In this document: positions 33,206 through 37,429 of the stretch, piece after piece
Layout: every line of letters starts with the position of its first letter
Numbering within the stretch: the first letter of the stretch is position 1
Assembly (NCBI GenBank): GCA_903914955.1
Contig: CAIWRB010000182.1
Span: 1-64,000, forward strand
Reading direction: 5' to 3'
Origin: an uncultured Chloroflexota bacterium
Lineage (GTDB): Bacteria > Chloroflexota > Anaerolineae > Anaerolineales > Villigracilaceae
Length of the DNA: 64,000 bases
Translations under genes and position numbers: made by a program
Notes under the pieces: model-generated
Told to the model about the DNA's origin: nothing
What the model saw: only the letters and a program-made list of their open reading frames with translations
Databases searched by the model: none

Positions 33206-34360
33206 ATGATTTATCTTGATTACGCCGCCACCACTCCAGTTGACTCGCGCGTCTTTGATGCGATGCTCCCATATTTCCGCGAATCTTTCGGAAACCCATC
33301 CTCCATCCACCGCTTTGGACAAAAAGCCGAAGCCGCGGTGGATGCTGCGCGCGAGAAAGTCGCTGCTGTTCTACATTGCAAACCAGGCGAGATCATCTTC
33401 ACATCCTGCGGCTCCGAGTCTGATAATCTCGCCCTTCGCGGCGCTGCCATTGCAAAACGAAATGTCACAGGCAAAAAATGGATACTTACATCCAAAACCG
33501 AACACCACGCGGTCAGTAAGACCGCACAGCAGCTTGAAAAGGAATATGGTTTCCTACTTGAATGGCTGGACGTTGATGAGTACGGAGCAATCAGGCCGAT
33601 TTCCTTGAACAAAGCTGTTTGCACTGATACGGTGCTTGCCTCTGTGATGTTCGCAAATAATGAGATCGGAACCATCAATCCAATTCCTGAATTGGCTGCG
33701 ATTGCCCGTGCAAACAATATACTCTTTCACACGGATGCAGTTCAAGCCGCAGCATATCTGGATGTAAATGTTGAAAAACTCGGCGTGGATCTGATGTCAC
33801 TCGGCGGGCATAAATTCTACGGGCCAAAAGGCGTGGGCGCGCTATACGTTCGCAATGGAACTGAACTTATCCCGCAGATGACAGGTGGCGGACAGGAGTC
33901 TAGTCTGCGCGCAGGGACGCAGAATGTGCCGTACATCGTCGGCTTTGCCGTGGCGTTACAGCTTGCGATGGAAGAAAGAGATGCGCGCATCGCACATGTC
34001 CAACCATTGCGTGACCATATTATCGGAGAAGTCCTTGAAACAATTTCTGATTCCAAATTGACGGGTCATCCTGAATCCCGCCTTCCCAATCATGCTTCAT
34101 TTGTTTTCAAAGATGTTGATGGAAACCTTTTACTGCAACTACTTGATTCAGCGGGTTTTGCCTGCTCTTCGGGTTCGGCCTGTAAAACAGGAAACCCTGA
34201 GCCAAGCGAAGTAATAACTTCTTTGGGTACCCCCCGCAATTGGGCCTTGGGGTCCTTGCGCATCACACTTGGCGTTGATTCATCACCCGCGCACGTGGAC
34301 GAATTTTTGAAGACTCTGCCAATATTAGTTGAAAAAGCAAGAGGATTACACCAGAGATAA
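33206..34360 (+). CDS. Cysteine desulfurase (NifS/IscS-like)
   Basis: MIYLDYAATTPVD, ASVMFANNEIGTINP, SLGGHKFYGPKGVGALYVR, CSSGSACKTGNPEPSEV. Confidence 0.93.
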   Translation: MIYLDYAATTPVDSRVFDAMLPYFRESFGNPSSIHRFGQKAEAAVDAAREKVAAVLHCKPGEIIFTSCGSESDNLALRGAAIAKRNVTGKKWILTSKTEHHAVSKTAQQLEKEYGFLLEWLDVDEYGAIRPISLNKAVCTDTVLASVMFANNEIGTINPIPELAAIARANNILFHTDAVQAAAYLDVNVEKLGVDLMSLGGHKFYGPKGVGALYVRNGTELIPQMTGGGQESSLRAGTQNVPYIVGFAVALQLAMEERDARIAHVQPLRDHIIGEVLETISDSKLTGHPESRLPNHASFVFKDVDGNLLLQLLDSAGFACSSGSACKTGNPEPSEVITSLGTPRNWALGSLRITLGVDSSPAHVDEFLKTLPILVEKARGLHQR

Positions 34361-34470
34361 TTGGACTTTTTTCTACTAAATTTGCGGATGTATTAAATCC
34401 ATCTTGAGAATTATCTTTTTCACTCTTGACGGATTCTATTTGACGGGAGTATAAACTTACCAAATGTTCC

Positions 34471-34603
34471 GTAAAGCTCCTGCTTTAGCAGTGGAGATGT
34501 AAGGAACGATTTTGCTTGTAGTATACTAAACATAGAAGCTCTCGGACTAGAGAGCCTGGGCTTTGCCCTAGAAGCCCCTCCTTTAGGCGTGGGGAGTAGT
34601 CAC
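34471..34603 (+). ncRNA. Candidate orphan IS200/IS605 right-end / TnpB omegaRNA-like remnant
   Basis: Hairpins gctctcggactagagagc, gggctttgccc, then gaagcccctcctttaggcgtggggagtagtcac (34571-34603), the typical TnpB-element 3' motif; a second related hairpin aaagctcctgctttagcagtggagatg at 34473-34499; no tnpA/tnpB ORF nearby. Confidence 0.5.
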
Positions 34604-34653
34604 TGGTTCTTATGATAATTATTCAATCTCAACCAAAAAAGGAGGTGATGGCC

Positions 34654-34782
34654 GTGGATGCGGATGACCATTTATGTCGTTCGTTTATATTCCGTTTTAA
34701 CTTCTCCGAAATGCGATTATCCCAGGTGCAAGTCAACTGTATTCCCACGCGCGTCACTTTCCTTTCTTCGCGGTATGATTAA
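34654..34782 (+). CDS. Putative leader peptide ORF upstream of the MgtE-N/CBS-NRAMP operon
   Basis: aaaaaaggaggtgatggcc GTG gat gcg gat gac... giving (M)DADDHLCRSFIFRFNFSEMRLSQVQVNCIPTRVTFLSSRYD*; strong SD 8 nt before GTG; stop 30 nt before the terminator hairpin. Confidence 0.45.
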   Translation: MDADDHLCRSFIFRFNFSEMRLSQVQVNCIPTRVTFLSSRYD

Positions 34783-34812
34783 GTAGACTGTTGTTTTTCC
34801 CTGAGTCCATCG

Positions 34813-34849
34813 CCACCTTCGGAGAATATCCCGAGGTGGTTTTTGTTTT
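34813..34849 (+). terminator. Terminator hairpin in the 5' leader of the MgtE-N/CBS gene
   Basis: ccaccttcgg agaatatc ccgaggtgg tttttgtttt; ends 16 nt before the ATG at 34866. Confidence 0.7.
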
Positions 34850-34865
34850 ACGCAAAGGAGTACCT

Positions 34866-36131
34866 ATGGCTTTCATTAGCGAACTCATTGGACGCCCGGT
34901 CACTGACTATGACGGCAAAAAAATTGGCGTGCTAAAGGATTTGATCGCGCGCACTTATAGTGAATTCTCCCATCCCGTTGTGGACGCGATCATTGTACAT
35001 GGCATGGATGGCGATATTACCCTGCCTTACTCCGATCTTGCCGCGTTGCTCTCCGCCGCCATCCCGTTGAAGCGTCCCTCAGTGGATATCCCAAATTACG
35101 AATCGCGCGAGAGCGATATTCGTCTTGTTGAAGATGTCCTTGATCAACAGATCATTGATACCGATGACGCACGCGTGGTGCGAGTCAATGATATTGAATT
35201 AGTGCGGGTTAATGGCAACGTCGTTGTCAGCAACGTGGATATTGGAATGCTGGGAATCATGCGTCGTATCGGATTGGAAAAACTGGGACGTTGGGCCGCC
35301 CAGCGTTTCAAAGCGGACCTGTCAGAGGGCACTATTTCCTGGGAGTTTGTCGAACCTTTGACACACGACCAGTCCATGCGTCTGAAAGTCCCCGCAGAAA
35401 AACTCGCCGAATTGCATCCCTCCGATATCGCCGAAATTATTTCCAATCTTAGCCGCGCTGAACATGGAGAGATACTTCATAAACTGGATATCAAGCGACT
35501 TGCCGAAACTCTCGAAGAAGTTGAACCAGATTTTCAAGCCAGTATCATCGAACACTTCTCTGATGAGATAATGGCAGACGTTCTCGAAGAAATGTCACCA
35601 GATGAAGCTACTGACTTACTCGCCGAACTGCCGGATGGTCGCCGCCAGGATTTGCTCAAACTCATGGAATCTGAAGATGCCGATGAGGTGCGCGAATTAT
35701 TGCGCTATGCTGAAGATACAGCCGGCGGTTTGATGACGACTGAATATGTCTCGGTCCTGCCAAACATGACCGCGTCTCAAACTATTGAACATCTGCGCAA
35801 AGTGGGTGAAGAAGCCGAGTTGGTTTATTACGTTTACGTCACCGATGAAGAAGAGCATTTAATTGGAGTCTTCTCGCTCAGTGATTTGATCCTTGCCCAG
35901 CCTGAAACACCGATCACAGAATTTATGCACAAACGTGTAGTCAGTGTTGAACTGGATACAGAGCAGAATGAGATCGCGCAAATGGTGGCCAAATATAATT
36001 TGATCGCCGTTCCCGTTGTGGATGTTGACAATAAGTTGCATGGCATTGTCACCTCCGATGACGCGCTCGATAAAATTTTACCCACGGCTTGGAAGAAGCG
36101 CCTGCCGCATTTCTTTGGAGCGCTCGAATGA
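34866..36131 (+). CDS. Soluble PRC-barrel + MgtE intracellular N domain + CBS pair protein
   Basis: MAFISELIGRPVTDYDGKKIGVLKDLI; LHPSDIAEIISNLSRAEHGEILHKL...EEMSPDEATDLLAELPDGRRQDLL; CBS repeats; no TM channel domain; RBS aaaggag before ATG 34866. Confidence 0.85.
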   Translation: MAFISELIGRPVTDYDGKKIGVLKDLIARTYSEFSHPVVDAIIVHGMDGDITLPYSDLAALLSAAIPLKRPSVDIPNYESRESDIRLVEDVLDQQIIDTDDARVVRVNDIELVRVNGNVVVSNVDIGMLGIMRRIGLEKLGRWAAQRFKADLSEGTISWEFVEPLTHDQSMRLKVPAEKLAELHPSDIAEIISNLSRAEHGEILHKLDIKRLAETLEEVEPDFQASIIEHFSDEIMADVLEEMSPDEATDLLAELPDGRRQDLLKLMESEDADEVRELLRYAEDTAGGLMTTEYVSVLPNMTASQTIEHLRKVGEEAELVYYVYVTDEEEHLIGVFSLSDLILAQPETPITEFMHKRVVSVELDTEQNEIAQMVAKYNLIAVPVVDVDNKLHGIVTSDDALDKILPTAWKKRLPHFFGALE

Positions 36132-37429
36132 AAAAAATATTTATCTCTTTACGCGAAAAGTGGATCGCTAATCGTTGGGTTCGGCGCGCTGTCTTGATCC
36201 TCTCAGTATTTGGTCCCGCTACCATCGCCGCTATGGCAGATAATGACGCCGGCGGAGTTGCTACCTATTCCATAGCCGGTGCGACACTTGGCTATCCTAT
36301 CCTGTTTCCGTTGTTTATCATCACCATTCTGCTGGCGGTCACGCAGGAAATGGGTATGCGCCTGACGTTGGTTACCCGCCGCGGTCTGGCAGACTTGATC
36401 CGCGAGAAATATGGAATCAAAGTCTCGTTGTTTATTTTTATGGGATTAATGATCGCCAACCTGGGCACCATCACTACTGAAGTTTCCGCCATTCGGACGG
36501 TCAGCGGAATGTTGAATATTCCAGTTCTGCCTTTTGTGATCGGGATGCTGTTGATTGCGTTTATATTTATCACAAAAGGAAATTACAAATTAACGCAGAG
36601 TATTATGTTGATCGTCTCCTTGTTTTATGTGACCTATATATTTTCAGCGGTCAAAGCCAATCCCAATTGGGGATTGGCGCTAGGCAATTTGATATATCCA
36701 CATGGCGTTTCTTGGACGTCCAAATATCTTGTCAGCTATCTGGTGATCGGGATGGGCGTGCTGGGAACTACCATCACTCCTTGGGGACAGTTCTTTATCA
36801 GCAGCTTTGCCTTCGATAAAAAAATGGAAAAAGACACACTTAAATATTCCCAATTTGAAACTTATTGGGGTGCATTCCTGACAGATTTTTTCTCGTTCTT
36901 CATGATCGTCGCGACAGCGGCTGCGCTAAATTCGCATGGTTATGGTGTCGGCGGGATTCAGCTCCAGTCTGGTGAACAGGCCGCTCTGGCGATCCGACCG
37001 TTTGCTGGTGAGCTTGCCAGTGAACTATTTGCGGTTGGGTTGCTCGCCGCGGCTTTTATGGGACTTATCATCGTGCCCCTTTCAACCGCATATGCCTTCT
37101 CGGAATTTTTCGGCCTGTCTGGAAGTCTGGATACAGATTTCCAAAAGAGCAAAACTTTTTATATTCTCTTTATTATTCAATTGGTTTTAGCAGCATTAAT
37201 TACAACCATCCCCGGCATTTCGCTCTTTCATTTTGCTATCGCCACGCAGACGTTGAATGCCATGATCCTACCGCTGGTTTTCTTTTATCTTATCAAGTTG
37301 ACCAGCAGCAAAAAATTGATGGGATCACATGTCAATAATGGTTTTCAGAAAAACTTTACCACAGCTGCTTCCGTCTTCATTGTGATCGCTTCCGCTTTTA
37401 CGGTTGCGGCCGTAATATTTAAATGGTAG
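36128..37429 (+). CDS. Divergent NRAMP-family divalent metal transporter
   Basis: FGPATIAAMADNDAGGVATYSIAGATLGYP...VTQEMGMRLTLVTRRGLADLIRE; ATGA overlap with upstream MgtE-N/CBS gene. Confidence 0.85.
   Translation: MKKIFISLREKWIANRWVRRAVLILSVFGPATIAAMADNDAGGVATYSIAGATLGYPILFPLFIITILLAVTQEMGMRLTLVTRRGLADLIREKYGIKVSLFIFMGLMIANLGTITTEVSAIRTVSGMLNIPVLPFVIGMLLIAFIFITKGNYKLTQSIMLIVSLFYVTYIFSAVKANPNWGLALGNLIYPHGVSWTSKYLVSYLVIGMGVLGTTITPWGQFFISSFAFDKKMEKDTLKYSQFETYWGAFLTDFFSFFMIVATAAALNSHGYGVGGIQLQSGEQAALAIRPFAGELASELFAVGLLAAAFMGLIIVPLSTAYAFSEFFGLSGSLDTDFQKSKTFYILFIIQLVLAALITTIPGISLFHFAIATQTLNAMILPLVFFYLIKLTSSKKLMGSHVNNGFQKNFTTAASVFIVIASAFTVAAVIFKW

Follow-up and report, generated by a model that had tools for sequence, protein, structure and literature searches.

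The window analysed here, a 64,000-nucleotide stretch of contig CAIWRB010000182.1 from an uncultured bacterium of the Villigracilaceae (Chloroflexota, Anaerolineales), contains a leader at 34604-34866 in front of genes for a putative regulatory subunit and an NRAMP-related transporter. The features of the locus are listed below with the basis of each assignment in parentheses. Regions 1 to 4 are the segments of the predicted RNA switch, and the core leaders are the nine matches of the pattern search described further on.

34426-34455, + strand: candidate promoter, TTGACG-18 nt-TATAAA (sequence)
34461-34603, no strand assigned: IS200/IS605-like miniature element between promoter and leader (genome copies; empty site in relatives)
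34640-34645, + strand: Shine-Dalgarno (SD) sequence AGGAGG, region 1 (sequence; AAAGGAGGTG is the same in 9/9 core leaders)
34654-34782, + strand: leader ORF of 42 codons with the N-terminus M-D-A-D-D-H (sequence and comparison)
34702-34710, + strand: antiterminator segment TTCTCCGAA, region 2, within the ORF at codons 17-19 (complementarity and folding)
34750-34765, + strand: SD-sequestering segment CGCGTCACTTTCCTTT, region 3 (folding; pairs with 34637-34652, dG -17.3)
34812-34849, + strand: intrinsic terminator hairpin and T tract, the 5' arm and loop being region 4 (scan and folding)
34866-36131, + strand: MgtE_N/CBS/PRC protein without a membrane domain, putative regulatory subunit (Pfam MgtE_N, CBS, PRC)
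36128-37429, + strand: NRAMP-related transporter of the Mg2+ (NRMT) type (nearest structure and metal-site residues)

The AGGAGG is separated by 8 nt from the GTG at 34654, which opens an ORF for a 42-amino-acid peptide (VDADDH...; VDADDHLCRSFIFRFNFSEMRLSQVQVNCIPTRVTFLSSRYD). The stop codon is followed after 30 nt by the terminator hairpin GCCACCTTCGGAGAATATCCCGAGGTGGT (34812-34840, -15.8 kcal/mol), whose T tract reaches 34849 and ends 16 nt before the ATG of the MgtE_N/CBS gene at 34866. The SD sequence, GTG, 42-codon ORF, terminator and MgtE_N/CBS gene reported in an earlier sequence-only reading were all found where it had placed them. That reading had also seen no M-box, and this was borne out: none of 4227 Rfam families matched 34000-36000 even at an E value of 5, so the window leader has no covariance-model match to the M-box (RF00380). 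The core leaders likewise have no M-box.

The candidate promoter was missed by a strict promoter scan; TTGACG-18-TATAAA/G occurs at equal spacing upstream of the leader in three relatives (G018, G334 and G162). The miniature element follows TTAC, ends in TCAC and has palindromic arms; some 13 other copies of 92-97% identity occur in the genome. At the leader site G018 and G015 lack it and the near-identical L191 and G379 carry it; its insertion would lengthen the 5' UTR of the leader. An ATG at 34612 lies in frame 42 nt upstream of the GTG (56-aa ORF), at constant spacing in 9/9 core leaders and near the transcription start predicted for relatives that lack the element. It could serve as a second, near-leaderless start. 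As the main start it was rejected: it is not kept in other clades (in L032, for example, the frame runs into a stop), and because it is not conserved outside the core leaders, the SD-driven GTG was taken as the start.

The closest solved structure to the product of 36128-37429 is 7qia (EleNRMT, E value 4e-60), followed by an NRAMP at 4e-17 and MntH at about 1e-9. Its metal site reads DAGG and TTITPW where others have DPGN and MPH. The Asn of DPGN is thus replaced by Gly and the TM6 Met is also replaced (by Thr rather than Ala), in agreement with the residue rule for NRMT proteins, the Mg2+ branch of SLC11 (PMC8806188). MgtE-N fragments are known to accompany NrmT genes, and one NrmT-clade protein, from A. 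capsulatum, carried Mn2+ (PMC4072509). The product is most probably a Mg2+-type NRMT rather than a Mn2+ transporter of the MntH type, with Mg2+ as its likely substrate. The MgtE membrane domain was searched for in the genome and not found. One other CorA-family gene is present (G000:C199:2829-3710, L239), with no evident leader.

A BLAST search of 41 genomes with 34400-35000 as the query matched 34609-34868 in two genomes of the same genus, at 84% and 79%. The chromosomal slot is unchanged, and the leader precedes a full MgtE gene in G018 and a CorA gene in G015. Retention of this DNA in two same-genus genomes with different downstream genes indicates conservation beyond chance.

A pattern blind to the downstream gene (SD, an NTG start with CTG left out, and D-A-D codons) was applied to 152 genomes of the family. 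It gave nine matches in nine genomes, one per positive genome, and the reversed control pattern gave none in the same 152 genomes. The genes after the nine matches encode MgtE_N/CBS with NRAMP in six cases and MgtE, CorA and the P-type ATPase MgtA in one case each. The last three assignments are supported by profile E values of 4e-116 (TIGR00400, MgtE), 1e-30 (TIGR00383, CorA) and 4e-112 (TIGR01524, MgtA, a 326-aa fragment). All nine matches therefore lie upstream of Mg2+ importers, of four unrelated classes, all known ones, and of nothing else. A looser SD+MDxD pattern, tried order-wide, was discarded as unspecific (about 0.5 matches per genome, close to the control rate).

The core leaders start with GTG, ATG or TTG; their codons 2-4 read GAY-GCN-GAY and differ at third, synonymous positions only, although the search pattern itself demanded the start and the types of codons 2-4. 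The independent evidence is therefore a wider set of 21 leaders of the MgtE_N/CBS class, mostly retrieved through the protein gene alone and otherwise unalignable as DNA, in which Asp stands at position 2 in 19/21 and at position 4 in 19/21. Conservation of the short ORF had been proposed as a check in the sequence-only reading, and the ORF with its acidic N-terminus proved to be kept, with changes of start codon and synonymous changes. Beyond the N-terminus the peptide varies, and the 3' part of the ORF is frame-shifted among relatives. Relative to the window, G018 carries a 1-nt and a 2-nt deletion; the stretch between them is read in another frame yet remains similar as DNA, indicating constraint on the peptide at the N-terminus and on the RNA in the middle and 3' part. 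The pattern of codon changes suggests that the leader ORF is translated.

The complement of region 2 is found at 34818-34826 (TTCGGAGAA), where the terminator has its upper 5' arm and its loop. The terminator is kept among the relatives, as the sequence-only reading had asked to see, and to this the comparison added the antiterminator inside the ORF. The CTCCGA within the ORF and the terminator loop bases, which are unpaired in the hairpin, are conserved in 9/9 core leaders. In nascent RNA ending before the terminator 3' arm, the probability of the 2:4 pairing was 0.80-1.00 in 9/9 core leaders; a ribosome placed on codons 1-6 left the pairing in place, and covering region 2 brought its probability to 0. 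Across nine clades, leaders fitted their cognate terminator arms better than non-cognate ones (permutation p 0.0002 for duplex energy and 0.002 for ungapped match). The energy of the 2:4 duplex compared with shuffles of the window's own leader was unremarkable and not significant, and the antiterminator case therefore rests on position conservation and on the cognate/non-cognate comparison. An unrelated 13-nt match plays the 2:4 part in L027 (TTCTGGCGAAGAA with TTCTTCGCCAGGG), and the equivalent in L026 is TTCTTGAGGGT with ACCTTCGGGAA. In the distant leaders L046, L049 and L050 the 2:4 pairing is weak or absent.

The main partner of the SD sequence lies at the same ORF position (nt ~101-109) in 8/9 core leaders, and the resulting 1:3 helix has a dG of -17 to -24 in these eight, compared with about -13 in shuffles. 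A second partner competes for the SD in G141 and G062, and G155 lacks the 1:3 helix. The 1:3 helix crosses 2:4, so that the two are mutually exclusive in a nested fold. In equilibrium folding of the full leader, the terminator had a probability of 0.94 in free RNA and of 0.66 when a ribosome occupied codons 1-6. Since equilibrium favors the terminator, antitermination would have to be kinetic, acting during transcription. Terminators were found upstream of 33/52 MgtE_N/CBS genes and in 28/113 controls (p 2e-6, relatedness of the sequences being ignored). A simple terminator scan gave no excess of intrinsic terminators in the CorA and MgtE upstream sets, for which reason transcription attenuation is claimed for the core leaders and the MgtE_N/CBS set only.

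Across the order, 122 regions upstream of MgtE_N/CBS, MgtE and CorA genes were compared with 113 control upstream regions. An acidic/Pro short-ORF score of >=4 was reached by 28% of the 122 regions, 6% of the 113 controls and 9% of shuffles (Mann-Whitney p 1e-9 for the scores of importer against control regions, again with relatedness among the sequences ignored). Short ORFs with early D, E or P residues include MDTDHSPQPP, MDPDLDPDSTHPFHPPGD, MNDDDLAGDR, MYTNDESDLGSSDNNPPS and MENITNSGSDSYQGEETAQPPS; acidic/Pro-rich leaders of unrelated sequence, such as MDPDLDPDSTHPFHPPGD and MYTNDESDLGSSDNNPPS, occur order-wide upstream of MgtE and CorA genes. Elsewhere in the phylum, other classes have recurrent short ORFs of a different kind upstream of MgtE_N/CBS genes (MExGPS..., MDAGSDSRIC...). 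A recurring M-[E/D]-x-G-P-S ORF at about -140 of the MgtE_N/CBS gene was observed in six loci of another class (L216, L221, L222, L225, L230 and L234).

In seven relatives (L026, L027, L028, L031, L032, L035 and L039, all MgtE_N/CBS loci), Rfam placed an M-box upstream of the leader. The aptamer is followed by a GC-rich hairpin with a T tract (in at least six of the seven), the start of the acidic ORF 103-169 nt after the aptamer end, and the ORF's own terminator. The tandem arrangement probably ties the ORF to Mg2+ control and marks it as a separate element. Such loci would carry two Mg2+-sensing devices in series. In L193 (2102-2500), the M-box is followed by an SD and then, where an ATG start would be expected, by ATA GAT ACG GGC; this may be the remnant of a leader ORF.

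In the CorA leaders of the family (g1, g18), alignment and folding place the ORF stop codon inside CATCACGTAG, a segment that could base-pair with CTGCGTGATG, itself the 5' part of the hairpin hiding the corA SD. These leaders look like candidate translational attenuators. Acidic or PPS-containing ORFs whose stop region can pair with the SD-sequestering hairpin were seen upstream of CorA genes in L141-L148, L149 and L151.

Taken together, the leader at 34604-34866 is probably a translation-controlled transcription attenuator of a Mg2+-importer operon, turned on when low Mg2+ causes ribosomes to stall or drop off at the acidic codons. What comparison and folding show is the ORF with its acidic N-terminus, the terminator, both pairings (2:4 and 1:3) and the association with Mg2+ importers. 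Regions 1 to 4 would form two exclusive states, 1:3 with the terminator (off) or the 2:4 antiterminator (on). At low Mg2+, a ribosome making M-D-A-D-D would stall or dissociate within the first codons through intrinsic ribosome destabilization, as with MgtL, keeping region 1 occupied and region 2 free. Free region 2 would then pair with region 4 ahead of the terminator 3' arm, and RNA polymerase would continue into the importer genes. When Mg2+ is sufficient, the ribosome would cross region 2, the terminator would form and transcription would stop. In an untranslated leader 1:3 would form, and the default would be termination too. The Mg2+-coupled attenuator put forward in the sequence-only reading is thus largely upheld and made more precise, its translation and Mg2+ response being the parts we infer. 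Mg2+ is argued to be the signal because all four importer classes, and the M-box tandems in relatives, point to it.

How ribosome stability on acidic nascent chains serves to sense Mg2+ was established in enterobacteria such as E. coli and Salmonella, the gut bacteria from which the strategy is chiefly known. Literature searches returned no paper on Mg2+ leaders or riboswitches in Chloroflexi or Anaerolineae. MgtL shows drop-off at EPDP when Mg2+ is low (PMC11282234, PMC11552253), Asp2 and Glu5 act in MgtQ (PMC8092293), and two acidic residues alone may not suffice (PMC11282234). The D-A-D-D of the window leader fits this published early-acidic requirement. As an acidic run, however, M-D-A-D-D is milder than the examples with the best evidence for ribosome destabilization.

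Like mgtL of mgtA in Enterobacteriaceae, the window leader is a short ORF with early acidic codons upstream of a Mg2+ importer, with alternative RNA structures, and early drop-off would favor expression in both. In contrast, mgtL combines EPDP with Rho-dependent termination, whereas the window leader, from another phylum, encodes an unrelated peptide and has an intrinsic terminator with the antiterminator inside the ORF. It shares with mgtQ (Salmonella mgtCBRU) the early acidic codons and a logic of alternative stem-loops (1:2/3:4 versus 2:3 in mgtQ), but mgtQ frees a ribosome-binding site between genes and acts on translation, whereas the window leader would attenuate transcription in a 5' leader. 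The family's CorA leaders seem to bear a closer resemblance to mgtQ. In corL of corA (E. coli, Salmonella), translation of the upstream ORF is likewise inverse to importer expression and linked to Mg2+, but corL is Rho-dependent and has fewer acidic or Pro residues. The features common to mgtL, corL and mgtQ, namely a short ORF with early acidic or Pro residues before a Mg2+ importer, and exclusive RNA structures governed by leader translation (here predicted by folding and comparison), are present in the window. The M-box (ykoK) shares the regulon, including NrmT with the MgtE-N fragment (PMC4072509), and often ends in an intrinsic terminator, but its RNA binds Mg2+ directly, and in relatives it is a separate element upstream of the leader. 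The window leader is a conserved one that would work like the enterobacterial Mg2+ leader peptides; it is not mgtL by sequence or termination type.

A riboswitch binding Mg2+ or another ion directly, with the conserved RNA as the folding element and the ORF incidental, would account for the Mg2+ regulon and for the conservation of the middle and 3' parts as RNA despite the frame shifts between the window and G018. It is nevertheless unlikely: Rfam gives no match, the RNA differs wholly between clades while the SD, start codon and acidic N-terminus persist, and relatives that use a riboswitch show a recognizable M-box upstream as an extra element. Asp is encoded by three of the first five codons and the alternative helices are arranged as in trp, so the ribosome might instead wait at Asp codons when charged tRNA-Asp is scarce, with Mg2+ not the signal. 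The downstream genes, however, are four classes of Mg2+ importers and not genes of Asp synthesis or loading; other clades mix in Glu, Pro and Ser (DESD..PPS, DPDLDPDS, GEDQAQPPS), so that nascent-chain chemistry rather than one codon is kept, and the M-box tandems also speak against an amino acid signal, which we regard as quite improbable. Very little weight is given to a translated attenuator that reports some other state affecting the ribosome (translation stress, ATP, or an EttA-type ABC-F protein) and targets Mg2+ importers through the link between Mg2+ and ribosome number. EttA does rescue ribosomes at early acidic residues, including those of MgtL (PMC11282234), and PMC8092293 describes mgtM of Salmonella as an ATP sensor, but the tight link to Mg2+ importers and the M-box makes Mg2+ the simplest signal.

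Beyond the window, we lean toward the view that the Chloroflexota have their own phylum-wide ribosome-based Mg2+ sensors, in which acidic/Pro leaders act on intrinsic terminators (for MgtE_N/CBS-NRMT, MgtE and MgtA) or on SD-sequestering hairpins (for CorA), in many cases behind an M-box, and which evolved independently of mgtL. If this is true, the occurrence of the enterobacterial logic in a distant phylum, with another termination device and ahead of four importer classes, would suggest that sensing Mg2+ through the ribosome is a general strategy or one invented repeatedly. The leaders would offer many natural D/E/P-rich N-terminal variants for testing which nascent chains destabilize ribosomes, together with natural tandem pairs of riboswitch and leader peptide for one ion, and would provide a functional handle on Mg2+ uptake in the largely uncultured Anaerolineales.
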